64,000 nt of DNA from Siphonodentalium dalli (Eukaryota; Mollusca; Scaphopoda; Gadilida; Siphonodentaliidae). The DNA lies in the NCBI GenBank assembly GCA_032622095.1, contig CP136061.1, positions 81,690,324-81,754,323 of the forward strand. The letters run 5' to 3'. The notes beneath the pieces were generated by a model. That model did no database searches, was not told the DNA's origin, and saw nothing but the letters and a program-made list of their open reading frames with translations. Made by a program: the position numbers and the translations under genes. Below are positions 28,412 to 63,327 of the stretch, one piece after another (positions within the stretch are counted from its first letter, which is position 1; each line of letters begins with the position of its first letter).

Positions 28412-28576
28412 TTAAGGATGGCATCTTCCCAAACACATGTGGGGCTGTCCAAAAAAATTCAATAAGTTAACAATATGTGAAAACAATTGCATGAAGTACT
28501 GCTGCCATGAGGTCCAAACCAACATCCAAGAAAAATCAATAAGTTGACGATATGAATCCAAGATATTCAATAAGTT

Positions 28577-29333: not shown

Positions 29334-29585
29334 TCACACAGGTAGTACTAGTGTTGTCATGAGGTCTCTAACGGCTGGGAATATTGCACATTCGTTGGGG
29401 TTTTGGTACTCTGAGAATCGCCGGAGCATGGCTGATAACGCTGCTTGACTTGCAGTCTGTTGGGTGTTCGGCTGCTGGTTCTCCATCAGGGAGATATTGT
29501 TCGTGCTCGGCTCGTACAGAAGTGGAACGAATACAGTCTGTGGTTCAGCCTGCCCCAACGGTGGCTTCGTACTCGTTAGCTGGAG
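29334..29585 (-). CDS. MED14: MED14 exon 17 (terminal)
   Basis: The acceptor is TTTAACAG|CTCCAG. It has 83 codons in phase 0, then TGA at 29336-29334. It encodes [20 protein letters not shown] at its start and [30 protein letters not shown] at its end, matching the order LQLT, then I/L-KRFAE, then C-IF-AVRDLM known at the MED14 C-terminus. The final ~50 coding bases are the source of the tandem array immediately downstream. Confidence 0.92.
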   Translation of the reverse strand, partial: LQLTSTKPPLGQAEPQTVFVPLLYEPSTNNISLMENQQPNTQQTASQAALSAMLRRFSEYQNPNECAIFPAVRDLMTTLVLPV

Positions 29586-32500
29586 CTGTTAAATAAGAAA
29601 GAAATAAATCAGTCAATGAACCATGTAGTACTCAAAGTCGTCTGCTGCTGATGTGCTCAACATTAGTCCTCACTGACGATTGACCAGCAACTTTGGATTA
29701 TGAACCAGACTTCTGCTTGTATGTGAATAGAACACTCAATTCTGATTGGCTGAGCAGCTTAGGGTATTACAATCTAACACAAGATATCGACTAGATATAT
29801 CAAGCAAGAATTAAAAGAAATACATAATTCAAGTGACAGTATACTAACAAAACAACCTGTGAAGAAATATTTAAAATATGTAAAAAAAATTAATCAGAAC
29901 ACAGAAGAGCTATGTCTTATTGGATACTTGAAGGGACTAAAATATTCTGATAATGATATTGAGACTAAAATATTTTAACTTACTACTACAGTTGATGACC
30001 TTTGTTGACAAATCACTGTAACAATTTTGTTTACATAACAATGGTTTCAACACGCAAAATGTTTATATTGATTAATTTCTCCATGTTCTTCTTAGTGGTG
30101 ATGTTTTTACAGACTATTTCATTTGTTGCACATTTACCCACTATGAGTGCCTTGGGTCCCTTTAGTGGTGATGTTTTAACAAACTTTTATATTTTTCAAA
30201 TATTTACCCAGTGAGTGCCTTGGGTCCCTTTAAATGTGATGTTTTTACAGACTTTAACATTTTTCACATATTTACCCACAGTGAGTGCCTTGGGTCCCCT
30301 TTAATTGTGGTGATGTTTTTTAGACTTTTATATTCTTCGCACAATTACCCACCGTGAGTGCCTTGGGTCCATTTAATGCTGTTGGCTCTTCATCATTATA
30401 TTTAAAAAATTTCAGATCGATGTCATGAATAACGTCTTTTCCTTCAGAATAAAAAAATAGTCCATATTGGTCTGATAGTTATGGTCTGATAGTTATGGGC
30501 AAATTTCAGAGTGTTGGTGTTGTTTCTGTGGTGCCTCACCAATCAACCAGAGACACGTATAGCACAGACATACCATAATGACGACTTTTTTCCGGACTAT
30601 GACAGCTGGAGTACCACGTACATACCATAATGACTTTCTTCCGGATTATGACAGCTGGAGTACCACATACATAGCATAATGACGACCTTTTTTCGGACTA
30701 TGACAGCTGAAGTACCACATACATACCATAATGACGACTTTTTTCCGGACTATGACAGCTGGAGTACCACGTACATACCATAATGACTTTCTTCCGGATT
30801 ATGACAGCTGGAGTACCACATACATAGCATAATGACGACCTTTTTTCGGACTATGACAGCTGGAGTACCACATACATACCATAATGACGACTTTATTCCG
30901 GACTATGACAGCTGGAGTACCACATACATACCATAATGACTTTCTTCCGGATTATGACAGCTGGAGTACCACATACTTACCATAATGACCACTTTCTTCC
31001 GGACTATGACAGCTGGAGTACCACATACATACCATTTTCTTCCGGACTATGACAGCTGGAGTACCACATACTTACCATAATGACATTTTTTTGGACTATG
31101 ACAGCTGGAGTACTGCATACTTACCATAATGACCACTTTCTTCCTGACGACAACAGCTGGAGTACCGGCCGGTACATTGGCTGGCTGAGCTCCTGGTGGG
31201 AATGTTAGGCACCACTGTACACTCCATGGCAGGTTACGATCGGGCATCTGAGGCTGAAAGAATAACGATTGGGGAAGTTAGGCACCAATGTACACTCCAC
31301 GGAAGGTTACGATCAGGCATCTGATACTGAAAGAATAATGATAAACACCATTATTATATCGTGCACATTTAGATTTTAGACATTGCAGTGGCATTTTGAT
31401 CATTTAAACATTTTTATTTAAAAAAACAAACAAACAAACTACTACACAAATGTAGGCTGGTGAATTTTGATGTCACCGCAAATAAAAACCTGTGTCCAGT
31501 GCCCACAAATTATTTTTGTTTTATTTTACAATCAATATCTGGGTGAAGTAATAAAGCTGATCAATCACATTACAAGTGTCATCATTATGAATTCCAAAAA
31601 GACATTTTCTGTTAAAAGACGTCGTTGACGTAATTGGTTTGTATTGTCAAAGAACAAGACAAAAAATTTTATGTAACATTTTGAAATATTCTGTATTGTG
31701 CTATATTTCTTAAATAAAAATCAATATGTGTGTAATAAATACACAGAACGACCCGAGTGCTAGTGTGGAAAGATAGAACGAGAGGCACAGCCTCGAATTC
31801 TAACCTGTCATGATGGCACAAGTGCTGTACCAACAAACCCATTAACACACATGCTGTTCTCTGTTTATTACACACTATTCATCCTGCAAACTGTGATTAA
31901 AAAAATAGACTCTCAAGGTTTATTCAGGCACATACAGGGCTTGTTTTGTCATGTACATGTATGATGATGCTTCTATTTTATAGTTCCAGTTTCATGATTG
32001 AGGGGAACGTATGGAATATATATATGTTCCATACAGATTTGTAAATATAGAACAACAGGAACACTGTAATTTTAGGAACAAGCATGTAATAAATTTGGTT
32101 ACAGTTCTAGTACAGTCATACCAGTTCTAATCTCATTATCTGGATACAATCTTTGAGAATTCTAACCGGAGCAGCGAGAATTCTGCAGAAAGCCGTCATC
32201 GCATTCACTTTGTATGGGGGGAACGCAACCTAGAACAAAAATAGTAATAATTATAATTTGCTCCCAATAAATTATAATAAAACTAAAATATGTGATTCCG
32301 ATTGGCTTAAGCCTTAATAAAGGTATGTCATTGAGAATTATGACTGGGCGGTGAGAATTATGCAGAAAAACATCATCGCATTCACTTTGTATGGGAGGAA
32401 CGCAACCTAGAACAGAAATAGTAATAATTATAATTCACTCCCTATAAATTATAATAAAACTAAAATATACAGTAATGCTCTAATTAATCGACCGATGAAT

Positions 32501-35500
32501 GGCAACAAGCCATATTTCCGACTAAATTTTGAAAAGTTACCCATAATTCTGCTGTGGTTAAGAGGTCGATTAATTAGAGCATTACTGTATGTGATTGAGA
32601 ATTATAGTTGGAGCGGTGAGAATTCTGCAGAAAGCCGGCAGCACATTGCCTTTGTATGGCAACCTAGAACAGAAACATTAATACAATAATTATAATTCAC
32701 TCTCCAGTAGATTCTATTAAAGGTGAATGATAGCTGTTCGTAAGAGTTGGTCAGAAATATAAATATCATATTAGGGTATGGCAATACCGACACATATAAA
32801 CATTGTTTTAGGGTATGGCAACCCAACACATATAAACATCGTTTTAGGGTATGGTAATACTTACACATATAAACATCGTTTTAGGGTATGGTAATACAGA
32901 CACATATAAACATCGTTTTAGGGTATGGTAATACCGACACATATAAACATCATTTTAGGGTATGATAATACCGACACATATAAACATCGTTTTAGGGTAT
33001 GGCAATACCGACACATATAAACATCGTTTTAGGGTATGGTAATACCGACACATATAAACATCGTTTTAGGGTATGGTAATACCGACACATATAAACATCG
33101 TTTTAGGGTATGGTAATACCGACACATATAAACATCGTTTAAACATCGTTTTAGGGTATGGCAATACCGACACATATAAACATCGTTTTAGGGTATGGTA
33201 ATACCGACACATATAAACATCGTTTAAACATCGTTTTAGGGTATGGTAATACCGACACATATAAACATCGTTTTAGGCTATGATGATACTGACACGTATA
33301 AACTTTTACCCGGCAAAATTTCAACACCGTGTTGAAATATCTGCGCAAACAGACAAAAAAAAAACCCCAAGATTTCCAGATAAAGAAGGATAACTCTAAA
33401 ATCGAAAATGCAAATAACTTCATTTGCACCTCTTTTGAAAGCAGTCAGGATGGTGAACCTCCACACCAAATATAATTCAGATCGGATAACCCATATGCCC
33501 ATATGGTAGAATGGACATACTGCCAAAGACTTTTCTTTTATGTGGATAAATTATATTTGTACCTTGAAATCAAAAAATCTTTCAAGAATCTGTATTTCTT
33601 CCACCCCGATCTGGTCCTTGAGTTCTGTGAAAATAAACCATATTAGAATCCAAGCCTGCAAATAGCGTGTCTGTCATTTGAAGCATGAGGTCCCCAGAGG
33701 GTGAATTTAGTGATGTTATCCCGCATAGCGGGCTAGCATCACCAAATTCACCCTCTGGAGACCTCATTCTGCTTAGGCCTCATATTATGGGAAGTATCTA
33801 TAGTCTCAAATGAACATTATTTTTAGTTACGTTTTCCCTCTTGGGAAGTTTCTATATCCCCTAATTTGCAGAAGATAAAATGCATAATCGAGGTGCCCAA
33901 TGGGTGAATATCACCATCTTCAACTGGGGAACTTCAATCTGATCCTAGGTTTCCCATAGCAGTTGAGGGCCTAAGCAGAATGAGGTCCCCAGAGGGTTAA
34001 TTTGGTGATGCTAGCCCACTGTGCGGGATAGCATCACTAAATTCACCCTCTGGGGACCTCATTCTGCAAATGTCACCCACGCTATTTGCAGGCTTGTTAG
34101 AATTAGGCCTGAGAATATGGTGTTGGACATTTGCAGAATGAGGTCCCCAGAGGGTGGATTTAGTGATGCTACCCTGTACAGCAAACTACATGTAGCATCA
34201 CCAAATTCATCCTCTGGGGACCTCATTCTGTATAGCCTCATCTGCTATGGGAGACATTGACTCAGATTTAATTTACCAGATGGTGAAGATGGTGATGTGC
34301 ACCCATTGGGTACCTCAATCATGCAAGGTGTCGTCTGCTAATTTGGGAATATAGATAAACTAAACTATATTATAACTTGTCTAGTTTCATGAATAAAACA
34401 TGATTACTGAATTGAGAATAAGTATACTAAGTATCCACCAATCAGGGTTCGCGCTGCCACTCGCCAAATTTGCCAATGGCAAAAATAATTCACATTTGGC
34501 AACTCTTCTACCATTGTATTGATCGGTGATTGGTTTATTGTTGTAGGATAAACCACAATAGATATGCGAAGTATAATTATTAACTAACTGCTTTCCTATC
34601 GATATCAAACGTCGTTCAAACCGCGAATGTCGAAATATAAAACTCAATCAAGGTTGCAGAAAATGATACTATCAGGGATAACATTTGGCAAATTCTAATT
34701 GAATTTGACAAAAAATATTTTCATTTGGCAAATTATTTGGCAAAAGTAAATTTCGGTCCAGCACGGACCCTGCCACCAATATAACAAGACACTGTCAATT
34801 TAGTTTCTGGCGACAATTTTCGTCGTCTATTATACCGAAAATCATATCATAACCATGACCTTGCTTCACCTAACAAACTCTCTTTTTGCTGGTCTGACAA
34901 TTCCAGGTGTAGAAAATAACCTAGATTTAAATAAACAGCTGAGCTTTGGAGGGTGGGTTCATCAAACCTGCAGATTTATAAATTATTATTAACTTATTAT
35001 TCGTTCCCCTGGTTTGTGCTTAGGTAACCCATACCACAGCTTAGCAGAATAGTTACACAAACAGTTATAATCACTGCAACTGTTATTAATAACTACAGAT
35101 GGGCAACTTATTGAAATAGCGTAATAAATTTGAATGTCTCATTTTGGGACTTGATTGAGCAAAAATTAAGGTGAGAATCAGTTATCGCGAGATATACATA
35201 AAACTTTGGCGCAACATGTTTTTCGTTCTTGGAATTTATTTTCATATTAGATAACCTCCAGGGAACTGAATGGTCGTTCACCTCCAATTTGCAGACCTGG
35301 TTCCTTGAGTGTTTTCAAATATTTTTCACCCCGAAGCTAAAGAAATATTAATTTAGGCACGTTAAACAGACATGGCTCATTCGAGCTTCCAAATTTTGTC
35401 TACATAATTTGGAAGGAAGTATAAAATAGGTTGATAGATATTGATATACCGGCTTCATAATCTCTGAAAAATACTTGCCAAGGTCACAGCCATTTTCCAG

Positions 35501-38500
35501 CTATTTTTAATGTTTCGCACAGAAGTGAAATAAACGCTTTATTCCTACCATATCAGGAATAGACAAACACAGAACGCTCTTTTATGTTCCATGCCGTGCA
35601 CATGTCTGTTGTTTGTTTGGAAACCAAACACTTGTGTTCAAAGTTGTATTTTTCATGTGTCTGGGACATAATGCATGTAGAAAGGTAATTATCAACCTAT
35701 TTTGATACTGGGAAAAATTCAAAAGTGAATATTATTAGGTGTAATTTGGAGTGCAAACTGCCAAGCGGCTTTAAATCAAACATGCTATATTTAATTATAC
35801 CTGGAAGAGCAGTAACTTTGAGGTGTAGAGACTGCAGGTGACTAGGATTTAGCTGAACTCTGAACTGTAGAACATCCGTTTTGAACAAAAACACCCCTGG
35901 TTCATTGCACTGTACGTTCTTCAGCTGTAAAAATAAAATAAACATGTACAATGTATTCATGTTACAATGTATTCATGTTACAATATATTCATGTTACAAT
36001 GTATTCTAATTACAATGTATTCATGTTACAATGTATTCTAATTACAATGTATTCATGTTACAATGTATTATAATTACAATGTATTCATGTTACAATGTAT
36101 TCATGTTACAATGTATTCATGTTACAGTGTATTCTAATTACAATGTATTCATGTTACATGTATTCATGTTACAATGTATTCATGTTACAATGTATTATAA
36201 TTACAATGTATTCATGTTACAATGTGTTCTAATTACAATGTATTCATGTTGCAATGTTTAATTACAATGTATTCATGTTACAATGTATTTATGTTACAAT
36301 CTACTCTAATTACAATGTATTCTAGTTGCATGTATTCATGTTACAATGTATTCTAGTTACAATGTATTCATGTTACATTATATGTTTTCATAAAATCTAA
36401 TCCTTTCCATAGTAAATGAGTCTCCCATTCAGTTATAAAATCTACTCCTTTCCATAGTAAATGAGTCTCCCATTCAGTTATAAAATCTAATCCTTTCCAT
36501 AGTAAATGAGTCTCCCATTCAGTTATAAAATCTAATCCTTTCCATAGTAAATGAGTCTCCCATTCAGTTATAAAATCTAATCCTTTCCATAGTAAATAAG
36601 TCTCCCATTCAGTTATAAAATCTAATCCTTTCCATAGTAAATGAGTCTCCCATTCAGTTATAAAATCTAATCCTTTCCATAGTAAATGAGTCTCCCATTC
36701 AGTTATAAAATCTAATCCTTTCCATAGTAAATGAGTCTCCCATTCAGTTATAAAATCTAATCCTTTCCATAGTAAATGAGTCTCCCATTCAGTTATAAAA
36801 TCTAATCCTTTCCATAGTAAATAAGTCTCCCATTCAGTTATAAAATCTAATCCTTTCCATAGTAAATGAGTCTCCCATTCAGTTATAAAATCTAATCCTT
36901 TCCATAGTAAATGAGTCTCCCATTCAGTTATAAAATCTAATCCTTTCCATAGTAAATGAGTCTCCCATTCAGTTATAAAATCTGATCCTTTCCATAGTAA
37001 ATGAGTCTCCCATTCAGTTATAAAATCTAATCCTTTCCATAGTAAATGAGTCTCCCATTCAGTTATAAAATCTAATCCTTTCCATAGTAAATAAGTCTCC
37101 CATTCAGTTATAAAATCTAATCCTTTCCATAGTAAATAAGTCTCCCATTCAGTTATAAAATCTAATCTTTTCCATACTAAATAAGTCTCCCATTCAGTTA
37201 TAAAATCTAATCCTTTCCATAGTAAATAAGTCTCACATTCAGTTATAAAATCTAATCCTTTCCATAATAAATAAGTCTCCCATTCAGTTATAAAATCTAA
37301 TCCTTTCCATAGTAAATAAGTCTCCCATTCAGTTATAAAATCTAATCCTTTCCATAATAAATAAGTCTCCCATTCAGTTATAAAATCTAATCCTTTCCAT
37401 AATAAATAAGTCTCCCATTCAGTTATAAAATCTAATCCTTTCCATAGTAAATAAGTCTCCCATTCAGTTATAAAATCTAATCCTTTCCATAGTAAATAAG
37501 TCTCCCATTCAGTTATAAAATCATAGATGGTCTATTATCAATTTGGAGGGTTCTTGAGGTAATAAGAGCAGACGACAGACAGAAAACCAGATAATACAAG
37601 AGCAGAATGATTCATAAGCAGATTCACAATATTGAGTCATTTCCTTATTTAGATTCGCACAAATTCTATGTTAGTCGTAAAACCCCTAATTTGGTGCGTC
37701 TACAACTTACAACTCGCAATACTATCATAGTAAATTCCCTATTTGGTGTGTGAAATTTGGTGCTAGGAGAAAATACTAACTGAATTGAAAAATATTCATC
37801 TCTTGCAAGAACAATTATATCATGTACACGTTTTCTGTTCCCATTATTTCCCAATCATGAAGTAACGTGGAATAGCTAGATTTTGAACTGACAGCGGGTA
37901 GTATGGGTCAATTAAAATAAAATTTGGTGCCATTTGAATGTGATTGTTGTTGGCGCGAATAATTTTATCTTTGCCCTCAACAGAGCAGCAGAACATTTTC
38001 ATTGGACGATCCGGTAGTTCCGAGTGTTTGTCTGTAAACAAATGGTTCTGTAATGTTTTTGATGTTTGTTTACATATCAAAGAGTAAAACTTGACAATAA
38101 CATGCAATGTACGTGATATTTATGATTAGTATAAGAACAAATTCTGTCTATTATATAATATTCATTCTGCTTATGGCGGTTTTAGATGTGACTATTTTAA
38201 CAACAATACCTATCGCAAAGGCCGCCCCAATCTTTAATGGGTTAGTACTCACTGATTCATCTTGATGTATGGCCCGAGGGAGGTGTTTCCGTAGATAGAC
38301 ACAGCCGAGGAACCGCTCGAGTGGTGAGGCATGTGGGAACGGGAATCCCGGCAGTAAACACGGGGTTAGAATAAGGTTGAACGCTTCCTGTGATAGGATT
38401 GTGGGTATAGATCCGGCCCACGACCGCTGAGGTAACATTCTCGATGGAGGGTTTATAACTGAAAGTTGAAATATAAAAATACGAAGATAAAGTACATATA

Positions 38501-56500: not shown

Positions 56501-59500
56501 CACCGCTCACTACCTCTATTGCCAACATAAAGCCTGCCTAATCAATGTTATGTATATTACGTCAAAGTAGCTTTATTAGTTAGGACTACTTTCATGAAAT
56601 AATTGTATATGCAAATTGCGAAGGGAACTAGTGACGTTAACCGACCTTAATGACATCATTGTGATTTTGTGACATTGTAATTCACCGCAATTGATACCAA
56701 ATTTGTAATCGGATATGTGTTTTCGCTCGAAAACATCTATAAACCATTATCTAAAGGCCAGCTTAGAATAACTATTAAAAAAAACCCAACGAACAATTAA
56801 GTTCCACTCTGGTTTTTCCACGAAATGAATGCTAATTAGTTGCTTGACCTAAAAAATGTAAAGGTGTCATCGAAGTAACGAATGTAAAACTGATGAAAAT
56901 GACAGATTTACATCACAAAATGCATGTTTTGTGCGATGGATAAAAAAAATATGTAGCTAATGTTGTCGCTAAAATGTCCACTCGGGGGATTTGGCATCTA
57001 TTGCTCAAATCCCCTTCACGGACATAAACAGTTTAAGCGATGACACTAGCTATATATTCCATATTTATTATGCCTTTATTATATAGATAATATAGATAAT
57101 GTATCTTCAGTTTTGCCTGTGTTTTATTCACAGAAAAAGCTATTTGTAGACTTAAAATTAGGTCTTATAAAAATGATGTTGTTGTTGTAATTGTGGCCCG
57201 CAAGTGACAGACCATCTTTAACCCTTTCAGTGCCAGGTCCGATTTTTTTATCGACCCATATACCCTGTGCCAATGCATTCTCTTATATATGTGAGTCGAC
57301 CATAGGTCGCCTCGCATATATAAGAGAATGCATTGGCCTAACAATTTTTCATCATTTGTTATTATTTTTTACAATTTTTTACAATTTTAATAATTTTTTC
57401 TTATATTCTTAAACTCTTTCAGTATTTTGTAGGTTTAGTGCCAGGGAATCTTACGTTTTTCATGGGTATCAAAATTATTACAATGAATAATTGGTGATAG
57501 TTTTGAGTTATTTAAATTGTTTTTTAAATTCGCTATAGCATGCTTAAGCATACCCAAAAAAAATTCAACCAAAACAAATCTAAATTTTTTTTATTTTTTT
57601 TTAGGGCCGATTTTACAGACCGTAAATTAGGGCCGATAAGATCGGCCCCTGGCACTGAAAGGGTTAAACACACATTTTGTAACAGCAATATAATGTTGTT
57701 GAAATAAATTAAATATTTTAAAGGTTGACTTACAAGACTCACAATGGAGTTTTTCCCCTGACCGTAAGCAATGGAGAGCTTTTGATAGTTATACGAGGTA
57801 ACTTCCACGGCATCGTGAAGAGGATACCTCACATCTGGAAGAAAGGAAAGGTCAATGACACTTTAGATCAACTTGTAGAGGGGATAATGTCATACATTAC
57901 AGCAAATGGAGTGATATGGAATGTGAATAGTTTAAATATTTAAGTAATACCAGAGGTCAACCCATTTCATGACAACCATGTTTTTCATCCAAAATTGTTC
58001 AAATTTAATAACTCCCATCTAGAGGTGATCTCAAACATGCCTGTAAATTTTAAAAATATTTTGCCAATAATTGTGGACTGCAGGTATGCTAATGGATTAA
58101 AATGTGAAATTCAGAAAAACAATTCTAAGCTCCCATCTAGAGGTCACCCCAATGATCCATGTGGAGTTTGGTGATGATCGGATGAGGGATGTGGCCTATA
58201 AGGTGTGCCAAAGGGAAATTGTTCATGGACTTTCTAGCATTTCATTAAACTATTTTATTTGTTTGGTCGGGGCTAATTAGTGTTCTCACAAGTGATCAAT
58301 ATCTCCGGTATTGAGTGGCAGATTCAATGGAGTGGGGTTGTCATGGGACAAGTGAGAAAAATTCAGCAAACTGTATACAAATCTAATACATTATGCGGCA
58401 TCAAACCGCATATTATTTAACCACATTGAAAAATATTATTAATTATATATGGATACTCAAATTTTGATTTCAAAGTTTTAGAATTATTTTATTAATGATT
58501 AATATTTCGTTATTTAACTTGTGCAAAAGCTGCAGGAACGCAATGGTGGAAGAAACTGTCAAATGTTCTGGTAGATGCATCCAATAAAATAATATTAATT
58601 ACTAGGTTATGAACTTCAATATCTGAACATTTCCCACCAGTGAATATGAATCCTTCCGCACTTATTATTTTTTTCTTATGTCTGTCCTCTGCTCATTTTT
58701 ATGAACACCCCTTCCAAATGAATGATAGACTATTCCACTGTACACTTTTATAACTGAATGGGCGAATCCATTTAGTATAGTAGGGTTAATTAGGTTCAAT
58801 TTCAGGAAGAAGAGAATAGACAAGTCGAAGTAGAATCCGTTAGAAATGGAAGTCGCTTACCATTGTAGACATCAGCAAATTCATTGACCAAACTAAATAG
58901 ATTTCCGACGGCATTCCACTCATCAATGAATCCAGCCATAGTTTTCTTCACATACTCAGCACCAAGTTCAAACATGTATGTAACTCTCTGTGTCGGTCCT
59001 AAATGTAAATGGTCAAATGAATTAAAAGAACTACAGGCACTGAAAACTTCACATCATTAATCCAGCCCAGTCCTAAATCCAGGACTTATGTGCGGTATTT
59101 GGTAGATAGGCTTCAATAGACATTGTATTCAAATGGAGATAACCGTTTGTGTGAGAATGTTTGATTGCCGATATACCGTTCAGTACTGCGGTGTTGACGA
59201 TTATTCAAAATACTGTACAGAAATACCAGAAAGAGAATGTTTCTAACCTGTTTATTTCGTAAATGATCCAATGAATTATAGGGACATAAGTGGGTTCATG
59301 AGAAATAACATACAAGTCTTTAAAGCAACTACCATCCAAGTCTAGATATTGTGTGTCACAACGCTTGTGGAAGTGGTAGCCTAGTGGTCAGAGTGTCGGA
59401 CTTGTAATGGTGTTAACACAGCGGCGTGAGTTTGCGCCTGTCTGTGGACTATCATCTCTGCAACAGTGGCTTGGCAGGATTAAGCGGTGTGTGTCCTATA

Positions 59501-62500
59501 TAGAGCCACATGCTGTTTCAAATCTCATGCCAAATTGCGACCCTTTGGCAAGCATCACTTGCACTATGCTCGCTTCATCGTACCTAGACAAGAAATAGGG
59601 ACCTGGTTGTTGGGTAAGTGAAGCGCCTGTAAAATGGCAGCATGCATAAGACTCAGCATTACTCAATGGCTGGGGTAATAATGTGAAGCGCTTTGGGCCC
59701 ATCTGGCATTGGGGATACGCACTATATAAGCACAATTATTATTATTATTTGCAAAATGAGGTCCCCACCCAGAGGGTGAATTTAGTGTCAGAGGGCTAGC
59801 ATCACCAAATTCAATCTCTGGGGACCTCAATCTGCTTAGGCCGCATCATCGGCAGTATCTGTAGTCTCAAATTAACTTTGTCCCAAGTAGAAGTGACTTC
59901 TCTCCCATATTCCAGTATACATATGTCCCAAACAGCATATTTAAAGTATATTTACTGATTATGATGGTGTTGTTACTCATTATAATGGTTTTATAAATGG
60001 GGTCTTGTGTTACATAATACTTATTGGATCACAGAAGGGTGATGCTGGGGTGTAAATTTAACTTCAGCCATTGTTACTTCTCCCTAATAACAGTCCACTT
60101 CTCTCTAATAACCAAACAGGGAGAAGTTACTTCTCCCAATTAGAAACCACTAGGCAGGTCCCTGTCGCAGGGCACTTTTAAAAGTCCCAAAGCAATGCAT
60201 ATGAATCAATATGATCAGTGCCATTGAAATTCGTTTGAAGTTTGAAATTTCAGCAAGAAAGTTTAAACCTTTTTAACTAAATACTCATTGATGAGTAGTT
60301 CCCATAGGAAATGTTCAGATAATAAGTTCAACAAAGGACCGTCATTTGTGGACTACAGTCGTTTGTTTAACTTATTATCTGAACATTTCCCTCCAATAAA
60401 TAGAACTACTTCTGCAATTTTATTATCTGGCGTCTGCTTATTTTCCTGAACACCCCTCCCAATGAATAATAGACCATTCCAATGTATACTTTTATAACTT
60501 ATGGGAGAATCCATTTAGTAAAGAAAGGGATCAAGGAACCACAAGAAAGTCTAAGTTACTAACCTGTTTCTTTGAAACTTGATGAAGCCAGGGGAGAGTG
60601 TGTAAAAATGAACTGAAACAGAAAAAATAAATTATGTTAATGTGGAGCTAAAGAAAATAAATTATGTTCCTACATTCTTGAATTATTCTAAAACTGTACT
60701 CAGGTGTCCTTTTAGGTGTCCTCAGGGTCCGGTATTCGGCCCCATTCCCAATGGGAAAAAGGCACCTTTATTCCCAATTTTCAACAACCAAATTCCCAAT
60801 TGCAGGCAGGTATATAATACCATCGGGTTTATTGAATAATTATCAATTTTCCGACGTTTTGTACACTCAGTCGATCGGGAGCCTTTATCGTATAATGTAC
60901 ACGCGGTGACCTAACTATTAGCTTAACATGCGAATTACCTCCCCTCTACCAGTCAGCGCATTTATGAAAGAGGGAGGATAACATGCTGATTTATATAAAA
61001 CACGTTTTTCCGTCGAAGTTTGGTGGATGGCTTGAATCCTTCCGTTGTTATCTGTGAATTTTCAACTTACCTGAGGCTGAATAATGGACCTCAATGGGCT
61101 GGGATTTAACTCCATCTTTGAGTTACCTGTGTTTAATTTGCGTTATACACCGAAAATTACAGTATTAGTACTATTTACATGTGTAACAGTGATTAATTGA
61201 ATTTTTCTAAAACATGGAAAATTCCCAATTTTGGTCTATAAAGACGCATTTTTCCCAATTCGAAGGGACCCGAACCCATTCCAAAAATAGGCAGAAAAAT
61301 CCCTGGATAAGTAATATGTGAGTCCATGCAAAGTCAATTTCCCATTTCTCAGGCCAAAACAATTTTAAAAGTATGCGAGCGAGCAGTTTTTAATATTTTT
61401 TTTTTATTCTGGGGTACACGAGAACGAAGCATTCCACCCCTGGAGTGGCCAGCTCTGGGTTTAATATTAGTTGTCTGTGGCCATTTACCCAAACAAATGT
61501 TCATAAAAGTTTGTAGATATTATTTATTTCACCCAATTATCATTGACACATTTTTTATTGAGTTTGTAAATGCAATTAATCTCGATGGTCATGTATTTAT
61601 AAAAAAATTGAACTCATAAATGTACTGCAATTTTTGTAGCGATTATATTTCACACCCCCCCCCCCCCCCCCAGATTAAAAGATGTATTGCCATGAGCTTA
61701 TTCCAACATTTTGATATATTTTTCAACAACATGTAGTTTCTTAGTGGCTGTGAGTGGTAAATCAAGCATCAACACAAAGTGTCCAACTAAAGCTAAAGGT
61801 TAAATTCTATTGTTTTAGTGCGACTATATTCACGGTAAGCTTAGGTATGGAATGGTATGCTCTCAAAGATGAGATATGGAAGTATCATTATATCAGGTCA
61901 CCAATCGTCACTGAGTTAAAATTTCAATATTTTTTAAATTCTAAACTGAATCGCGATACACATATCGTATCATGAGCAAAATTCTTGATATTTATCAGCC
62001 ATTTCCTATGAAATTCCCTGATAAAATTGGCCGATAACTAATTAGAAATAAAAACATCTGTATCATTACTGCAGTTGTGGTACAAGGCATGCATGAAGTC
62101 ATTGACTGGTTGAAAATCATGAATGATCTGACGTCTATCGTGTGAACAATCAAAACAACATTCCAACGTATATTCTTGGGCACTATAAACAAATAGTTCC
62201 AAGGGTTTAACATTATTTGATTGCCTCCCATCATGGGTATTATGGGAAAACATATCACAAAGTAACAAATACATATTTGTTGAGTATTTATTACATAATT
62301 ATATAAAAACGCAGGTGTAAGAGAAAACTAGCCTCATTGAGATACATGAATCGATACAAACACATTGTTTATATAACACATTTGTCAACGTAATTCGCAT
62401 GATCGCACGAGTTTCCAGGCATGAGATAATTCTCAGAATCGCACTAGTGCAATCTGTCGACGGAACTATTTCATTCAGTGTTGTTAGACTGGTTCTCGCC

Positions 62501-63298
62501 GTTACTATTTTTACTTTTTCAATCACGACAATAAAGAAACAATAAGCGATCAATCGATGAGATGATTCATTCAAGTAGTTTCATTTCAAGAATATCTTTG
62601 TTGAGGCACACGGTTATTCGCGGATAGATGGGCTCCCTGTCTGATTGTTGCGTTAACCTTAAAATGCCGTTAAAACTCAATTAAATTCACATTTTCTCTA
62701 CCGGGGATGTACGATTGTGAGTCAACTTACTGTGATACGGAGATATGTAATAAAAATAGAACTGCATGAGTGTCTGGATTTTGACGAATTATCGCACTCG
62801 ATTTGTTGGCGGAACGCGATACCTCTCGTGCGGGACTGCGTCCCACACTCGAGGTATCTCTCCGCCAACAAATCTCGTGCGATAATTTCATCAAAATCCA
62901 GACACTCATGCGGTTCTATCTATATATAACACATATGTATCGTATTGTAGCAGGGGTGTATCATTTCAGACCTACAGTAATGCCCAAAGTAATTGACCAC
63001 TTAACCCCTGACCACTCTCGGCGAGAGCTTTCCGATGAATGGCAACGAGCCATAATTCCGACTAAATCCTGAAAAATTACCCATAATTCTGCTGTGGTTA
63101 AGTGGTCAATTACTTTGTGTATTACTGTAGATGGATGAACAGACAAAATCAATCCAGTACACTGAAAATTTGATTCATACCTCAACAATCCACGACTTCA
63201 TCTGCTTGCCGAGCGTACAAACACGGAATTTGCAGGAGAGGAGATTTTTCTTTAGTTCTTTGGTTACAGCTTCACTGCAGCCTGCACAAGCTGGAAAA
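29334..63298 (-). CDS. MED14: MED14, Mediator complex scaffold subunit; C-terminal half in 17 exons
   Basis: Seventeen minus-strand exons (63181-63298 through 29334-29585) join in consistent phase into 776 residues ending in TGA. Identification rests on stretches I recognise from animal MED14: a DDNPPSPIG serine/proline linker start, [39 protein letters not shown]-like and the C-terminal [11 protein letters not shown]14 links the head, middle and tail modules of Mediator and so couples activators to RNA polymerase II in the nucleus. Human MED14 is about 1450 residues, so roughly half is seen; earlier exons lie beyond 64000. Exons 9-12 form the proline/serine-rich linker and exons 13-17 the conserved C-terminal domain. 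Introns reach 5.6 kb and are full of repeats, several being copies of this gene's own exon edges. Confidence 0.93.
29586..30080 (-). other. MED14: MED14 intron 16, start-distal part
   Basis: AT-rich intron sequence; nothing recognised between the acceptor of exon 17 and the array at 30080. Confidence 0.6.
30080..30400. repeat. ~79-bp tandem repeat, four units
   Basis: Each unit carries GTGAGTGCCTTGGGTCCCTT, then a GTGATGTTTTTACAGACTTT block and a CATATTTACCCA block. No match to the flanking exons, unlike the next array. Confidence 0.8.
30551..31124 (-). repeat. ~52-bp tandem array derived from the 3' edge and donor of MED14 exon 16
   Basis: Eleven units (GTACCACATACATACCATAA, TGACGACTTTCTTCCGGACT, ATGACAGCTGGA) run directly into the real exon end. 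On the minus strand each reads CCAGCTGTCATAGTCCGGAA, GAAAGTCGTCATTATG and then GTATGTATG or GTAAGTATG, a diverged copy of the last ~37 coding bases of exon 16 with its donor. The unit length varies between about 49 and 52 bp, so frame is not kept. Confidence 0.9.
31125..31253 (-). CDS. MED14: MED14 exon 16
   Basis: The acceptor is TTCTTTCAG|CCTCAG; the donor is ATTATG|GTAAGT. It has 43 codons, phase 0 on both sides: [20 protein letters not shown], then [20 protein letters not shown] and VIM. This matches the MED14 segment WNVQFCLTIPP followed by PGTPAVV. Both edges are duplicated nearby: the 5' edge at 31254-31335 and the 3' edge in the array at 30551-31124. Confidence 0.93.
31254..31335 (-). 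pseudogene. partial copy of the 5' edge of MED14 exon 16
   Basis: The minus strand reads TTTCAG|TATCAGATGCCTGATCG and on through GTGTACATTGGTGCCTAAC, about 60 bp almost identical to the start of exon 16, then meets the real acceptor. The copy keeps its own AG acceptor but lacks the rest of the exon. Use of this upstream acceptor would insert [14 protein letters not shown] sequence before the real exon. Confidence 0.85.
31336..32121 (-). other. MED14: MED14 intron 15
   Basis: AT-rich; the ORF at 31669-31875 has no recognisable similarity. No repeat identified. Confidence 0.55.
32122..32229 (-). CDS. MED14: MED14 exon 15
   Basis: The acceptor is TTGTTCTAG|GTTGCG; the donor is GAACTG|GTATGA. 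It has 36 codons, phase 0/0: [20 protein letters not shown] then [16 protein letters not shown], matching the MED14 segment PPFKANTLIAF then HILRDCVHIMKLEL. Two decayed copies sit just upstream in the transcript (32331-32407 and 32596-32682). Confidence 0.93.
32331..32407 (-). pseudogene. decayed copy of MED14 exon 15 (copy 2)
   Basis: On the minus strand GTTCTAG|GTTGCGTTCCTCCCAT and on through AAAGTGAATGCGATGATG matches exon 15. A base loss after ATTCTCACCGCCCAG shifts the frame into a stop, and the region of the real donor is altered. Adjacent intron sequence (AATAATTATAATTCACTCCC) is duplicated too, so the unit was exon plus flanking intron. Confidence 0.85.
32470..32587. mobile_element. 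mariner/pogo-like MITE (TA-flanked), 118 bp
   Basis: TA precedes CAGTAATGCTCTAATTAATC; the right end GATTAATTAGAGCATTACTG is followed by TA. The interior shares GATGAATGGCAACAAGCCAT and CCATAATTCTGCTGTGGTTA with 2869-3083 and 62975-63127. It is inserted in the ACTAAAATA|TGTGATT sequence between duplicated exon 15 copies; the equivalent site near 32285-32297 is empty. Confidence 0.85.
32596..32682 (-). pseudogene. decayed copy of MED14 exon 15 (copy 3)
   Basis: On the minus strand GTTCTAG|GTTGCCATACAAAGGC and then CTTTCTGCAGAATTCTCACC match exon 15 with a small deletion near the start that breaks the frame. The acceptor is retained. Confidence 0.8.
32765..33300. repeat. 37-bp tandem array, about 14 units
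   Basis: The unit is ACACATATAAACATCGTTTT plus AGGGTATGGTAATACCG. Two units contain a partial TTTAAACATCG duplication. It lies in MED14 intron 14. Long frames on the minus strand ([11 protein letters not shown] repeats) are translations of the array. Confidence 0.92.
33563..33624 (-). CDS. MED14: MED14 exon 14
   Basis: The acceptor is TTTTCACAG|AACTCA; the donor is TTCAAG|GTACAA. It is 62 bp: two bases complete Glu, then [20 protein letters not shown]. It matches the MED14 segment with DELQVLEKFFE. Phase fits exons 13 and 15. Confidence 0.9.
33655..34335. repeat. cluster of AGAATGAGGTCCCC hairpin repeats with second module
   Basis: Inverted pairs are at 33687-33772, 33978-34073 and 34137-34232. 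The second module (AATCGAGGTGCCCAATGGGT at 33880-33910 and the inverted CACCCATTGGGTACCTCAAT at 34299-34322) brackets part of the cluster, giving a larger nested palindrome. Confidence 0.8.
34443..34772. mobile_element. hAT-type non-autonomous element with perfect 8-bp TSD
   Basis: It is flanked by CCACCAAT on both sides (34435-34442, 34773-34780). The inverted termini are CAGGGTTCGCGCTG and CAGCACGGACCCTG. It is 330 bp long with internal CATTTGGCAAATT repeats and no ORF of note. The 8-bp duplication and CAGGG ends are typical of hAT elements. Confidence 0.88.
34781..35334 (-). other. MED14: MED14 intron 13 stretch without recognisable features
   Basis: AT-rich; nothing recognised. Confidence 0.5.
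35335..35763 (+). repeat. ~430-bp dispersed repeat (inverse copy at 40042-40440)
   Basis: Shared blocks are CATTCGAGCTTCCAAATT, GGTCACAGCCATTTTCCAGC, AACCAAACACTTGTGTTCAA and AATTTGGAGTGCAAACTGCC. Both copies are intronic in MED14, in opposite orientation, about 4.7 kb apart. Confidence 0.8.
35801..35924 (-). CDS. MED14: MED14 exon 13
   Basis: The acceptor is TATTTTTACAG|CTGAAG; the donor is CTTCCAG|GTATAA. It is 124 bp, phase 0 to 1: [20 protein letters not shown] then [20 protein letters not shown] and P. It matches NEPGVIMFKTDALKCRV and LQLKVT of animal MED14. A 16-bp tandem array starts 20 bp upstream of its acceptor. Confidence 0.93.
35944..36380. repeat. 16-bp tandem array next to the exon 13 acceptor
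   Basis: About 26 units of GTTACAATGTATTCAT with TTCTAATTA variants. It lies where the branch point and pyrimidine tract of MED14 intron 12 should be, so length variation could affect splicing. Confidence 0.9.
36387..37522. repeat. 45-bp tandem array, about 25 units
   Basis: The unit is ATAAAATCTAATCCTTTCCA, TAGTAAATGAGTCTCCCATT and CAGTT, with very few variants (GAG/AAG, C/T). Homogeneity suggests recent expansion. The unit resembles the dispersed repeat at 58740-58790 read in reverse (TTTATAACTGAATGGGCGAA, ATTTAGTATAG). Confidence 0.95.
37640..38080 (-). repeat. ~450-bp dispersed repeat, copy 2 (inverse of 18640-19105)
   Basis: See the shared blocks with 18640-19105. Here it lies in MED14 intron 12. 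Its longest open frame (87 codons, minus) contains [11 protein letters not shown] and [13 protein letters not shown], but the other copy breaks the frame. Confidence 0.75.
38253..38458 (-). CDS. MED14: MED14 exon 12
   Basis: The acceptor is CAACTTTCAG|TTATAA; the donor is GAATCA|GTGAGT. It is 206 bp: two bases complete Val, then [40 protein letters not shown] and [20 protein letters not shown] with AIHQDES. This is one of the most conserved MED14 blocks ([23 protein letters not shown]). The 5' edge and its acceptor are duplicated at 38735-38812. Confidence 0.95.
38735..38812 (-). pseudogene. copy of the 5' edge and acceptor of MED14 exon 12
   Basis: Plus-strand text CTGAGGTAATATTCTCGAGG, TATATAACTGAAAGTTGAAA and GATAAAGTACATATTGAAG repeats 38427-38500. 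On the minus strand it has TTTCAG|TTATATACCTCGAG, the first ~27 exon bases, and then diverges. It lies about 310 bp upstream of the real acceptor in the transcript. Confidence 0.8.
38940..39290. repeat. ~180-bp tandem duplication
   Basis: AAGGCCCACTTAATTTCAGA, ACCCCCAGATCACATTATAT and GAGGAAGCTCCAAAACA occur twice; a diverged fragment remains at 42740-42795 and 43390-43412. Confidence 0.9.
39595..39715. repeat. AGAATGAGGTCCCC hairpin repeat
   Basis: One inverted pair (GCAGAATGAGGTCCCAGAGG to CCTCTGGGGACCTCATTCTG) lies 20 bp downstream, in the transcript sense, of the donor of exon 11. Confidence 0.85.
39736..39900 (-). CDS. MED14: MED14 exon 11
   Basis: The acceptor is CCTATTGCAG|GCATAG; the donor is ACATCAG|GTAAGG. 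It is 165 bp, phase 1 to 1: [40 protein letters not shown] and [30 protein letters not shown] is the counterpart in animal MED14. A weaker donor (TACA|GTAAAA) 11 bp earlier in the exon would keep phase less well with the conserved neighbour. Confidence 0.92.
40042..40440 (-). repeat. ~400-bp dispersed repeat (inverse of 35335-35763)
   Basis: See 35335-35763. The plus-strand frames at 40035-40265 and 40199-40444 are translations of this repeat. Confidence 0.8.
40548..40731 (-). CDS. MED14: MED14 exon 10
   Basis: The acceptor is GACTTTTCAG|ATAACT; the donor is CCTCCAA|GTATGT. It is 184 bp, phase 0 to 1: [40 protein letters not shown] and [20 protein letters not shown] with P; A plus GC of exon 11 gives Ser. 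It is Ser-Pro rich like the SPGNLHA, APSPASFVPTP part of the MED14 linker. This region is probably disordered. Confidence 0.9.
40755..41110. repeat. AGAATGAGGTCCCC hairpin repeats
   Basis: One inverted pair lies at 40870-40965 with the second module (GACGACACAGCGCATAATCG) at 40760-40830. A half copy ends TGACAGACACACTATTTCAA then GGCTTG at 41030-41108. Confidence 0.8.
41434..41705. repeat. half copy of the 55419-55826 inverted-repeat element
   Basis: It starts TTAAAGGTACTCAATCCGAT and later has TGATCACTCTGAGCTTTGAT, GGTGGGTTCC and GCCAAAGAAATTGTAATTCG, matching one arm of 55419-55826. Confidence 0.7.
41710..42087. mobile_element. TTAA-flanked MITE with CCCTTTACCCAACA ends
   Basis: TTAA at 41706-41709 and 42088-42091. 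The inverted termini are CCCTTTACCCAACAGAAC and GTTTGTTGGGTAAAGGG. Two inner GCCAATGCATTCTC hairpins (41737-41792, the first shortened, and 41870-41944) are inverted as in the other families, while the terminal sequences are different. Confidence 0.88.
42206..42448 (-). CDS. MED14: MED14 exon 9
   Basis: The acceptor is TTTTTACAG|GCATTC; the donor is TCAGTC|GTAAGT. It has 81 codons, phase 0/0: [40 protein letters not shown] and a Ser/Pro/Asn-rich tail ([20 protein letters not shown]). [22 protein letters not shown] is a signature of animal MED14, which makes the identification firm. Confidence 0.96.
42449..43189 (-). other. MED14: MED14 intron 8, no recognisable features
   Basis: AT-rich; only a fragment of the 38940-39290 repeat near 42740-42795. 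Confidence 0.5.
43190..43352. repeat. 57-bp tandem repeat, three units
   Basis: CCTGTCTTCCCATCAATAAG, TTTAGATAGCTATATTTGAT and ATGTACTATCACGTC occurs three times head to tail with almost no variation. Confidence 0.92.
43410..43910. mobile_element. chimeric hairpin MITE with T-rich spacer
   Basis: The left hairpin (ACCCTGTGCCAATGCATT, shortened) is at 43412-43485 and the right hairpin at 43795-43870. Between them are about 300 bp of TTCTTACATTCTTTAACAAT-like T-rich repeats. The right end CAGGAAGCTCCAGTCATGGA AGGG is followed by TTAA (43911-43914); no matching left TTAA end is visible. Confidence 0.7.
44030..44213. mobile_element. TTAA-type MITE, type 2, left-truncated
   Basis: The right terminus AATCTCCAGTCATGGATGGG plus TTAA (44214-44217) and two CTCCC-type hairpins match 28156-28411. 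The left end begins in mid-hairpin. It stops 74 bp from exon 8. Confidence 0.75.
44287..44437 (-). CDS. MED14: MED14 exon 8, with an in-frame 11-codon duplication
   Basis: The acceptor is GATTTTATAG|AAATTG; the donor is CTCAAG|GTTTGT. It is 151 bp: one base completes Val, then 50 codons. [11 protein letters not shown] is followed directly by [11 protein letters not shown], then [20 protein letters not shown] and FTPTSGLK. Animal MED14 has a single CIDIYCRS before [14 protein letters not shown], so the first 33 coding bases are duplicated in frame. The phase-2 donor of exon 7 (GT|GTATCC) fits only this exon start. Confidence 0.92.
44896..44972 (-). CDS. MED14: MED14 exon 7
   Basis: The acceptor is ATCTTCCAG|TCTCCA; the donor is AATGT|GTATCC. 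It is 77 bp: [20 protein letters not shown] then IAFRN and two bases of Val. It matches the MED14 segment SILPQS-THIRLAFRNMYC. An alternative donor two bases earlier (AAT|GTGTAT) would not join exon 8 in frame. Confidence 0.92.
45225..45665. repeat. 50-bp tandem array, about 9 units
   Basis: The unit is GGCTATTACATTCACAGGGT, CGAAGGGAGATAAATCTAGC and TCGATAGACC with alternating ACATT/AGATT and TCGAAG/CCGAAG variants, suggesting a higher-order two-unit period. MED14 intron 6. No exon similarity. Confidence 0.92.
45666..46324 (-). other. MED14: MED14 intron 6, no recognisable features
   Basis: AT-rich intron sequence with two copies of AATACTCTAGGGAACGCCCT (45900, 46230); otherwise nothing recognised. 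Confidence 0.5.
46325..46399 (-). CDS. MED14: MED14 exon 6
   Basis: The acceptor is TTATTTGTAG|TTGCTT; the donor is GGAACA|GTGAGT. It has 25 codons, phase 0/0: [20 protein letters not shown] then RGTGT, matching the MED14 segment [20 protein letters not shown]. Only this copy has the full exon with a donor; ten further copies of its 5' part plus acceptor follow at 46400-47225. Confidence 0.9.
46400..47225 (-). repeat. 82-bp tandem array of the acceptor and 5' part of MED14 exon 6
   Basis: Together with the real exon the motif GCCCATGTCTCGTG occurs 11 times at 82-bp spacing. On the minus strand each unit reads CATTATTTGTAG|TTGCTTCA, then CGAGACATGGGCACCTATGA, TGTCAATCAGTAAGCT and then intron GGCTGGTATCATGTTAACCT. 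Each unit therefore contains a full acceptor and about 46 exon bases, then a GGTATCA that could act as a weak donor. Variation is very low (GAAG/GGAG). Confidence 0.92.
47235..48725. repeat. dispersed repeat fragments (CAGCAGCCATG family) in MED14 intron 5
   Basis: AATTAGTCGTGCAAAGAATA then AATTACAAGATGACTGCCAG occurs at 47380-47445 and 48316-48370. Related blocks (AAGTAATACTAGAGGTCAAC, GTTTGGTGATGATCGGATGA, GGTGTGCCAAAGG) recur at 57860-58235 and 63720-64000. The stretch 47450-48315 between the two copies looks single-copy; its 98-codon plus frame has no recognisable domain. Confidence 0.7.
48730..51410. mobile_element. PIF/Harbinger-like element B with nested Helentron-like insertion
   Basis: TAA flanks both sides (48727-48729, 51411-51413). 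The inverted GGCCAAAAAAAAAA / TTTTTTTTTGGGCC termini with GGTTCTC next to them match element A (3782-5038). Internal sequence (GCATGGACAAAGATACCTTC, TAGAGCTCAATGCACACTAA) is collinear with A but is interrupted by 48921-50912. Confidence 0.78.
48921..50912 (+). mobile_element. Helentron/HINE-like element, copy 2
   Basis: It has the same start (ACGAGAGGCCGATCACGATC, first ~60 bp identical) and end (GTTTACCATACTATGGTATG then GGTAAACAT) as 22016-24020, an unrelated middle, and a 3' part of ~146-bp units with AGGGCCATAACTC and TCGAACTCGATCTGTATTT. It is inserted at GTCTTATATA / AAAATGATATTG. The empty site is in element A near 4580 (GTCTTGTATAAAATGACATT). Confidence 0.65.
51761..52014. mobile_element. 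full-length AGAATGAGGTCCCC double-hairpin element
   Basis: This is a 254-bp almost perfect palindrome from CAAGCCTTGAAATAGTGTGC to GCACACTATTTCAAGGCTTG. Each half is itself a hairpin (GCAGAATGAGGTCCCCAGAG ... CCTCTGGAGACCTCATTCTG). It appears to be the intact form of the family scattered through the window. It ends 23 bp from the donor of MED14 exon 5. Confidence 0.88.
52038..52187 (-). CDS. MED14: MED14 exon 5
   Basis: The acceptor is TTATTTTGCAG|GTTGAT; the donor is GTTCAG|GTAATT. It has 50 codons, phase 0/0: [40 protein letters not shown] and [10 protein letters not shown]. It corresponds to the MED14 region with IQWN---KFHISLGTVGP and HQLQEMFN. Conservation is moderate; placement between exons 4 and 6 is supported by phase and order. 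Confidence 0.9.
52206..52570 (+). repeat. ~370-bp dispersed repeat, copy 2 of 3
   Basis: Same blocks as 14145-14515, starting within 20 bp of the exon 5 acceptor side of intron 4. The hAT element at 52620 lies just beyond its end. Confidence 0.8.
52620..53997. mobile_element. hAT-type element, 1378 bp, perfect 8-bp TSD
   Basis: Flanked by CAAACTAA on both sides (52612-52619, 53998-54005). The inverted termini are TAGAGCTGAAACGGTTGACC and CTAACCATTTCAGCTCTA; subterminal AACCGGTTAACC-type repeats occur at both ends, resembling transposase-binding clusters. No intact transposase frame; the largest frame, at 53528-53743, is not recognised. Confidence 0.9.
54019..55250. mobile_element. hAT-type element, 1232 bp, perfect 8-bp TSD
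   Basis: Flanked by CAAATAAT on both sides (54011-54018, 55251-55258). The inverted termini are CAGGGTTGGTGATTTATTTG and AAATCAGCCAACCCTG, with many GATTTAAATC subterminal repeats. It contains a copy (54705-55075) of the ~370-bp dispersed repeat. It lies only 21 bp from the previous hAT element. Confidence 0.9.
54705..55075 (+). repeat. ~370-bp dispersed repeat, copy 3 of 3, inside a hAT element
   Basis: Closest to 14145-14515 (ACAGTGACTCTTGATG, GTTTATCACCAATAGTTGCG, TTGGCATAGCGCCTGAATAC). Its presence inside the hAT element suggests either insertion into it or carriage by it. Confidence 0.8.
55419..55826. mobile_element. inverted-repeat element with long arms, TTAA-flanked
   Basis: TTAA abuts AGGTACTCAATCCGATCAGA at the left and the inverted TTTGATCGGATTGAGTACCT at the right. 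Arms of about 150 bp each (TATTTCTTTGGCTTCGGGGG / CCCCCAAAGCCAAAGAAATA; TGATCAGATATTGATTTTTG) surround a short middle. The GG start is not the usual piggyBac CCC, so the class is open. Confidence 0.75.
55830..57221 (-). other. MED14: MED14 intron 4, no recognisable features
   Basis: AT-rich; AAAAGGGGAATGAAAA-type blocks occur three times near 55930-56040; otherwise nothing recognised. Confidence 0.5.
57222..57663. mobile_element. TTAA-flanked MITE (CCCTTT...AAAGGG), copy 2
   Basis: TTAA at 57218-57221 and 57664-57667. The inverted ends are CCCTTTCAGTGCCAGGTCCG and GCCCCTGGCACTGAAAGGG. It is collinear with 15578-15969 in reverse orientation and contains one GCCAATGCATTCTC hairpin. Confidence 0.9.
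57734..57834 (-). CDS. MED14: MED14 exon 4
   Basis: The acceptor is TTTCTTCCAG|ATGTGA; the donor is AGTCTT|GTAAGT. It is 101 bp, phase 1 to 0: two bases complete Asp, then [20 protein letters not shown] and [13 protein letters not shown]. It corresponds to the YKTIFVSYGTTKGSSISI part of animal MED14. Confidence 0.9.
57850..58235. repeat. dispersed repeat, CAGCAGCCATG family member
   Basis: ACTTGTAGAGGGGATAATGT, AGTAATACCAGAGGTCAACC and GTTTGGTGATGATCGGATGA match 47235-47440, 48540-48650 and 63720-64000. Confidence 0.7.
58600..58795 (+). repeat. dispersed repeat related to 60285-60530 and 6780-7060
   Basis: ATCTGAACATTTCCCACCAG, AATGAATGATAGACTATTCC and TTATAACTGAATGGGCGAAT are shared. The last block is the likely source of the 45-bp array at 36387-37522. 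Confidence 0.7.
58861..58998 (-). CDS. MED14: MED14 exon 3
   Basis: The acceptor is TACATTTAG|GACCGA; the donor is TACAATG|GTAAGC. It is 138 bp, phase 1 to 1: [40 protein letters not shown] and ADVYN. I cannot match it residue by residue to MED14 from memory, but phase, strand and order place it in the gene. Confidence 0.85.
59365..59750 (+). mobile_element. tRNA-derived SINE with (ATT)n tail
   Basis: The 5' head GTGGTAGCCTAGTGGTCAGA resembles a tRNA A box, and GAGTTTGCGCC 40 bp later a degenerate B box. The 3' tail has GTGAAGCGCTTTGGGCCCAT, then GCACTATATAAGCACAATTA and an ATT run, a tail type common in animal SINEs. It is about 385 bp long, in MED14 intron 2, opposite in orientation to the gene. 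A hairpin-repeat fragment follows immediately. Confidence 0.85.
59751..59840. repeat. AGAATGAGGTCCCC hairpin repeat (fragment)
   Basis: GCAAAATGAGGTCCCCACCC, AGAGGGTGAATTTAGTG and the opposite arm ATCTCTGGGGACCTCAATCT form a shortened hairpin directly behind the SINE tail. Confidence 0.8.
60285..60530 (+). repeat. dispersed repeat with internal inverted repeat
   Basis: GTTCAGATAATAAGTTCAAC and its inverse AACTTATTATCTGAACATTT bracket a short loop; then comes AATGAATAATAGACCATTCC and TATGGGAGAATCCATTTAGT. Related to 6780-7060 and 58600-58795. Confidence 0.75.
60564..60612 (-). CDS. MED14: MED14 exon 2
   Basis: The acceptor is TCTGTTTCAG|TTCATT; the donor is GAAACAG|GTTAGT. It is 49 bp, phase 0 to 1: [16 protein letters not shown] then G shared with exon 3. 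It is short and only supported by good splice sites and matching phase with exons 1 and 3. Confidence 0.75.
60723..61305. mobile_element. possible hAT-like element without TSD
   Basis: CAGGGTCCGG near 60723 and AAAAATCCCTG ending at 61305, with repeated ATTCCCAATT motifs near both ends (60745-60800, 61210-61260), look like degraded termini with subterminal repeats. The flanking octamers do not match, so the boundaries are uncertain. Confidence 0.4.
61306..61984 (-). other. MED14: MED14 intron 1 stretch with a poly-C run
   Basis: A run of about 20 C is at 61650-61671. The 97-codon plus frame at 61326-61619 has no recognised domain. Nothing else seen. Confidence 0.5.
61985..62290. repeat. ~300-bp dispersed repeat, copy 2 (see 20870-21260)
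   Basis: CAGCCATTTCCTATGAAATT, TCTGTATCATTACTGCAGTT, GCACTATAAACAAATAGTTC and GATTGCCTCCCATCATGGGT match copy 1. It is followed at 62325-62385 by a half of the 21415-21575 palindrome, the same neighbour order as in copy 1, so the two form one larger repeat. Confidence 0.75.
62735..62930. repeat. ~190-bp near-perfect palindrome
   Basis: The left arm (TAGAACTGCATGAGTGTCTG, GATTTTGACGAATTATCGCA, CTCGATTTGTTGGCGGAACG) pairs with the right arm ending GACACTCATGCGGTTCTATC; the centre is at GCGGGACTGCGTCCCAC. Same class as 1209-1358 and 17533-17688. Confidence 0.85.
62975..63127. mobile_element. mariner/pogo-like MITE (TA-flanked), 153 bp
   Basis: TA precedes CAGTAATGCCCAAAGTAATT; the right end ACTTTGTGTATTACTG is followed by TA. 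One arm is partly deleted relative to 2869-3083. It lies about 50 bp from the donor of MED14 exon 1. Confidence 0.8.
63181..63298 (-). CDS. MED14: MED14 exon 1 of the window (gene continues beyond 64000)
   Basis: The acceptor is TCTTTTAACAG|TTTTCC; the donor is GTTGAG|GTATGA. It is 118 bp, phase 2 to 0: [40 protein letters not shown] second AG eight bases further in (TTTTCCAG|CTTGTG) would start the exon at 63290; its two leading bases then need a phase-1 donor upstream, so it cannot be excluded from this window alone. Not matched to MED14 from memory; linked by phase and strand. Confidence 0.75.
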
Positions 63299-63327
63299 CT
63301 GTTAAAAGAGAAAGAAAAACTTGTTAA

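Follow-up and report, generated by a model that had tools for sequence, protein, structure and literature searches.

Why should a conserved gene carry, in its introns and 3' flank, copies of the edges of its own exons, and are exon borders favoured as seeds of such copies? These questions are raised by the MED14 locus of Siphonodentalium dalli in the window analysed here (i.e. the whole stretch of 64,000 nucleotides). MED14 is represented in this window by 16 exons running from 63298 to 29334 on the minus strand (A to P in our labelling, corresponding to exons 2 to 17), which is also the strand of all the exon and edge-copy features described below. The exons were found with a human MED14 probe and then delimited by splice signals, and the borders so chosen show AG at 16 of 16 acceptors and GT at 15 of 15 donors. 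Once joined, they provide an open frame of 734 residues from the second window exon to the stop, with consistent phases at each junction. Residues 13-733 of this protein were aligned with human MED14 from solved structures (E 9.4e-146), and at least 85 protein matches were obtained with 7989 candidates scored, the best among the matches listed being an Elysia chlorotica protein. Alignment with five relatives gave identities of 50% (Elysia), 62% (a fragment), 55% (Lamellibrachia), 54% (Mya) and 44% (Acipenser), and a Pfam scan of five single-exon frames identified Med14_C in two of them (exons 16 and 17), with no match in the other three. The first two window exons (63181-63298 and 58861-59039) have AG/GT borders with mismatched phases; the sequence may be wrong by one base, a microexon may have been missed, or the true border may lie elsewhere. 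The annotated MED14-like protein of Mya arenaria (P0018) is without the stretches corresponding to exons 6, 16, 13-14 and part of exon 4; exons 6 and 16 have arrays in the present locus, exons 13-14 and 4 being free of border copies. These absences would be annotation gaps or skipped exons; that Mya carries similar repeats is only a guess. In the region 1-28500 a second gene was sought among 36 stop-to-stop frames of at least 75 amino acids, none of which was recognisable by eye.

First-pass annotation of this DNA had located copies of coding edges at exons 6, 12, 15, 16 and 17 and an internal copy in exon 8, and blastn, Tandem Repeats Finder and exon-blind scans place real copies at these sites. 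Six of the 32 exon borders of MED14 in the window lie inside local direct duplications: four are acceptors, duplicated together with the start of the coding part (exons 6, 12, 15 and 16), the fifth is the donor side of exon 16, and the sixth is the region around the stop in exon 17. Every edge copy is in direct orientation and lies no more than about 0.9 kb away, and most of them retain the splice signal. The best blastn match for the six border cases ranges from E 9.7e-75 to 5.7e-16, values that rule out chance similarity as the source of the copies. Two exon-blind scans for local direct duplications (blastn and ungapped; offset up to 1500, low complexity removed) recovered, when pooled, the identical 6 of 32 borders, i.e. 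five splice borders plus the stop; taken singly each scan is incomplete, blastn missing the acceptor duplication of exon 16 and the ungapped scan that of exon 12.

At exon 6 (46325-46399) a tandem array of 11 copies of an 82-bp unit, including the real one, extends over 46352-47226, so that the first 48 nt of the exon are the last array unit. Each unit consists of 34 bp of intron tail ending in the TTATTTGTAG acceptor followed by 48 bp of the coding edge, and the units are 98-99% alike. AG is kept in all 10 distal copies, nine of them with the full TTATTTGTAG; in the outermost copy TTTGTAG is all that remains of the tail, and this copy adjoins an interspersed repeat. The same interspersed repeat recurs near 57.9, 18.6 and 63.7 kb.

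Exon 16 (31125-31253) is duplicated at both edges. Its acceptor, together with 57 bp of coding edge, belongs to a 73-bp tandem duplication (31197-31342; 88% identity), and its 3' coding edge and donor recur as an array at 30560-31166, whose 12 units (the real one among them) measure 43-52 bp. GT is intact in 10 of the 12 units (9 of the 11 distal ones); the real donor reads GTAAGT, and the distal ones comprise two GTAAGT, seven GTATGT and two CTATGT. Exon 12 (38253-38458) has a single degenerate copy of its acceptor (CAACTTTCAG) and coding edge about 305 bp upstream (38737-38810), 84% identical over 80 columns, with 33 bp of the real exon aligned and a 5-bp deletion. Exon 15 (32122-32229) has two, both upstream of the real exon: one with the acceptor and about 80 bp of coding edge (32328-32468; 89%) and another with the acceptor and coding edge (32595-32721; 75%, with an 8-bp gap). 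At exon 17 (29334-29585), the last exon, which holds the stop, the coding end and stop region are present nine times, including the real one, across 28517-29386, with the copies in the 3' flank; they also carry post-stop sequence and are spaced at 48-175 bp, mostly 86.

In exon 8 (44287-44437) 33 bp at the 5' edge are duplicated in tandem and in frame (44375-44438), the duplication starting at the first exon base or within 2 nt of it. It was seen by Tandem Repeats Finder (score 93) and is absent from the blastn comparison and from both exon-blind scans. The duplication adds 11 residues that are absent in human MED14 and in all four relatives covering the site, the fifth (P0002) beginning later. 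No in-phase AG lies ahead of the second copy, and translation of these additional residues is therefore expected. One reading of this arrangement is that exon 8 represents an edge duplication which may have turned coding after loss of its inner splice site.

None of the other copies offers a usable coding alternative among the sites examined. An early stop follows from each of 25 alternative sites (10 exon 6 acceptors, 11 exon 16 donors of which two lack GT, two exon 15 acceptors, and one acceptor each of exons 12 and 16), each distal site being used by itself and joined to the remainder of the real exon. Any of the 10 distal acceptors of exon 6 leads to a stop 21 residues past the junction, the 11 distal donors of exon 16 (nine GT, two CT) reach a stop 25-29 residues past the real exon end, and the acceptors of the other copies (two at exon 15, one at exon 12 and the upstream one at exon 16) likewise give early stops. 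Neither the unit lengths (82 and 52/49/43) nor the indels in the copies preserve the frame. Therefore, the copies look like passengers rather than alternative exons.

The edge copies were also claimed to be independent of each other rather than dispersed by one transposon, and this holds: they differ in sequence and unit length, and within the window each matched only its own exon, so that a single transposon is rejected. An introner would place the same element at several loci; here the copies of the five border-duplicated exons matched their own exon only, within the window, and the sole other match touching an exon is an interspersed repeat alignment that reaches 9 bp into exon 11. The window does contain dispersed sequences of other kinds. 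A short interspersed element occurs in both orientations, often as facing pairs, with about two dozen matches (sites at 51755-52015, 33650-34230, 39601-39721, 40868-41109 and 205-910), and several of its copies are found 15-30 bp from MED14 exons (5, 11 and 14). A motif of 23-30 bp, again in both orientations, has more than 25 occurrences across the window (e.g. 63369-63398) and is probably part of a small transposon family. Ordinary intronic arrays served as a comparison class. One with a 16-bp unit (35943-36383) ends 18 bp from the exon 13 acceptor and excludes the border; another, with 25 copies of a 45-bp unit that are 98% alike (36390-37522), lies away from borders. The latter array leaves a minus-strand frame open over 387 codons, probably just because its unit length is a multiple of three.

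Whether exon borders are preferred seeds was approached with a hand-made list of 29 seeds from Tandem Repeats Finder, blastn and ungapped scans, in which entries were classed as 'interspersed' or 'small' by eye, the unit retained for each array being chosen by hand. The exon 8 coding duplication was excluded from every seed count; the 15-seed counts also exclude seven interspersed and six small or low-complexity entries, which the 28-seed count keeps, and a 22-seed list, likewise hand-made, consists of the 15 plus the seven interspersed entries. In the event test each duplication counts as one unit placed at random on the collapsed sequence, places wholly within an exon being excluded. Uniform placement of 15 seeds yielded 0.85 expected border-spanning duplications versus six observed, and 0 of 5000 runs reached six; restricting placement to within 2 kb or 1 kb raised this expectation to 1.54 or 1.58 (P 0.0008 and 0.0010), and it was 1.32 (P 0.0008) for the 3' half alone (13 seeds) and 1.53 (P 0.0032) for all 28 seeds, always against six. 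For splice borders only, five were observed versus 0.86 expected (P 0.0010), or versus 1.33 in the 3' half (P 0.0056). Shifting the border set along the collapsed sequence gave 1.44 expected with 22 seeds, interspersed ones kept (P 0.0010), and 0.83 with 15 seeds, where no shift reached the observed six. The per-event excess is thus nominally about 4- to 7-fold, with P from 0/5000 to 0.0056 across the variants run.

A position-level test, whose mask was derived from the two exon-blind scans with no hand-picked entries, points the other way. Duplicates cover 24.2% of the non-exonic MED14 positions (18.6% when positions with additional distant matches are removed) and 11.5% of the exonic ones, and borders show no excess over this background (6/32 versus 24%; shift mean 7.48, P 0.78), nor do they in the 3' half (28.5-47.3 kb), where 6 of 24 borders compare with 41% of non-exonic positions. 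Of the two, we consider the event test to describe seeding better, since in any array a real border can fall within one unit at most. The earlier suggestion of a mechanism that starts at splice junctions gains nominal support per event and none per position, and we regard the border excess per event as suggestive, not established. Duplicates cover 21% of positions 1-28516, interspersed ones included, versus 24% of the non-exonic MED14 stretch; with such similar densities in and outside the gene, MED14 as a whole is unremarkable. Within the gene, duplicates occupy 5% of intronic positions in 47300-63350 versus 41% in 28517-47300.

We favour, with a probability of roughly 0.78, the explanation that the edge copies are mirage-type minisatellites, i.e. 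independent local duplications in an event-rich stretch, several of which happened to span borders and whose products are passengers. These tandem duplications would be short and local (33 to about 140 bp) and would have arisen independently, several of them across an exon border. When a single border is duplicated, an intact edge would stay beside the exon and the extra copy would be pushed into the intron or the 3' flank, where, so displaced, it should be near-neutral and therefore free to expand or to decay. Expansion could have produced the 82-bp array of 11 units, the approximately 50-bp array of 12 and the 86-bp repeats, and decay the copies at exons 12 and 15. Splicing would stay on the exon-proximal site, most likely via exon definition, as only that site is one exon length away from its partner. 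The passengers would then provide spare splice sites and, at exon 8, added coding sequence. Chance alone predicts poorly the six border-spanning duplications, as compared with the 0.83-1.58 expected, and the same excess (6 of 15 seeds) speaks for borders being preferred seeds, with some junction feature such as transcription-linked breaks, R-loops, composition steps or proto-splice motifs promoting duplication; several amphioxus reports of border repeats agree with it (PMC3087553, PMC3902484). On the other hand, the position test is flat, the border hypothesis is post hoc, having been drawn from the same data on one gene with a hand-made seed list, and inspection by eye revealed no microhomology or motif common to the duplication ends. 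Moreover, a duplication with one constrained copy stays recognisable longer, which could explain part of the excess: if longer visibility doubles the expectation (to 1.7-3.1), the Poisson P of at least six falls at 0.008-0.09 by hand calculation. We thus consider preferred seeding unlikely. The broader speculation that splice junctions are true duplication hot spots in lophotrochozoans and cephalochordates, with genes gaining recruitable spare edges and exon 8 being a mirage copy that is already coding, appears to us more doubtful still.

That the copies are under selection, either as spare splice sites or as decoys whose early-stop transcripts tune the MED14 level, would fit the AG kept in 10/10 distal exon 6 copies, the GT kept in 9/11 distal exon 16 copies and the early stop that follows from every alternative, but homogenised arrays retain such signals anyway, GT is gone from two donor copies, indels have degraded the copies of exons 12 and 15, and those of exon 17 span no splice border, all of which makes selection very unlikely. 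An assembly artefact is best imagined at exon 6, since an array 98-99% homogeneous is one whose copy number is hard to assemble; misjoined reads would nonetheless hardly yield copies that are 75-92% identical and carry changes and indels of their own, or the three unit lengths of the exon 16 array, and we judge an artefactual origin of the arrays highly improbable. The exon 15 copies, with their acceptor and most of the coding part, might recall duplicated, mutually exclusive exons; yet every distal site examined leads to an early stop, and neither the blastn comparison nor the alignments of the copies showed one with both edges of its exon, so that we give this possibility almost no credence.

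The pattern had been taken as undescribed at first pass, a claim contradicted by the amphioxus literature. Minisatellites spanning exon-intron borders have been named 'mirages' in amphioxus, where they occur in Adh3 and in the globin genes BflGb6 and BflGb9 and are reported to leave splicing undisturbed, as judged from Adh3 data and globin RT-PCR (PMC3087553); two such repeats are described in lancelet PGBD5, with troponin C cited as a further case (PMC3902484). A molluscan mirage report was not recognised among titles and abstract starts in a coverage that leaves out most subscription journals, which is weak evidence of novelty. Other duplications resemble the MED14 copies only in part. Intron gain by tandem genomic duplication likewise involves an intragenic tandem duplication with splice signals (PMC4974935), and an AG/GT proto-splice model of intron gain is described in the report on mirages (PMC3087553); unlike in those systems, no new intron is seen in MED14 and the copies lie within existing introns or the 3' flank. 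The ordinary intronic minisatellites of the window (16-182 bp units) overlap the MED14 edge arrays in unit length, copy number and homogeneity but do not include an exon border.

The closest likeness is to the amphioxus mirages themselves, which are border-spanning tandem repeats of 5' and 3' edges, with units from tens to about 160 bp and many copies bearing AG/GT, as in MED14 (PMC3087553). Cluster-end units are said there to escape homogenisation, and the odd unit of the exon 6 array is its outermost one. In PGBD5, too, a single gene holds separate tandem repeats, of 60 and 108 bp, that overlap exons, adjoin or include splice sites and are made of imperfect copies as in MED14, but it offers two instances (PMC3902484), whereas MED14 has six borders involved, with copies in introns or the 3' flank. 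The duplicated unit spans the exon-intron border at the acceptors of exons 6, 12, 15 and 16 and at the exon 16 donor, and we place these splice-border cases in the mirage class; exon 17, where the unit spans the stop instead, and exon 8 are tandem duplications at other edges and stand apart from them. Tandem, multicopy organisation is found at exon 6 (11 copies), the exon 16 donor (12) and exon 17 (9), the exon 16 acceptor being a single tandem duplication and exons 12 and 15, with spaced copies, displaying this feature weakly. What distinguishes MED14 from the amphioxus mirages is the different phylum and the presence of five splice borders and a stop-codon border in one gene; mirages in a lophotrochozoan gene, and their number within a single gene, may be new. 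A pattern reported from amphioxus is now found in another animal group, with six border-spanning duplications in one conserved gene, and any molluscan genome could answer whether borders are favoured seeds of tandem duplication. The edge copies hold spare splice sites; they may mislead gene prediction, and the growth of exons or the gain of introns could draw on them.
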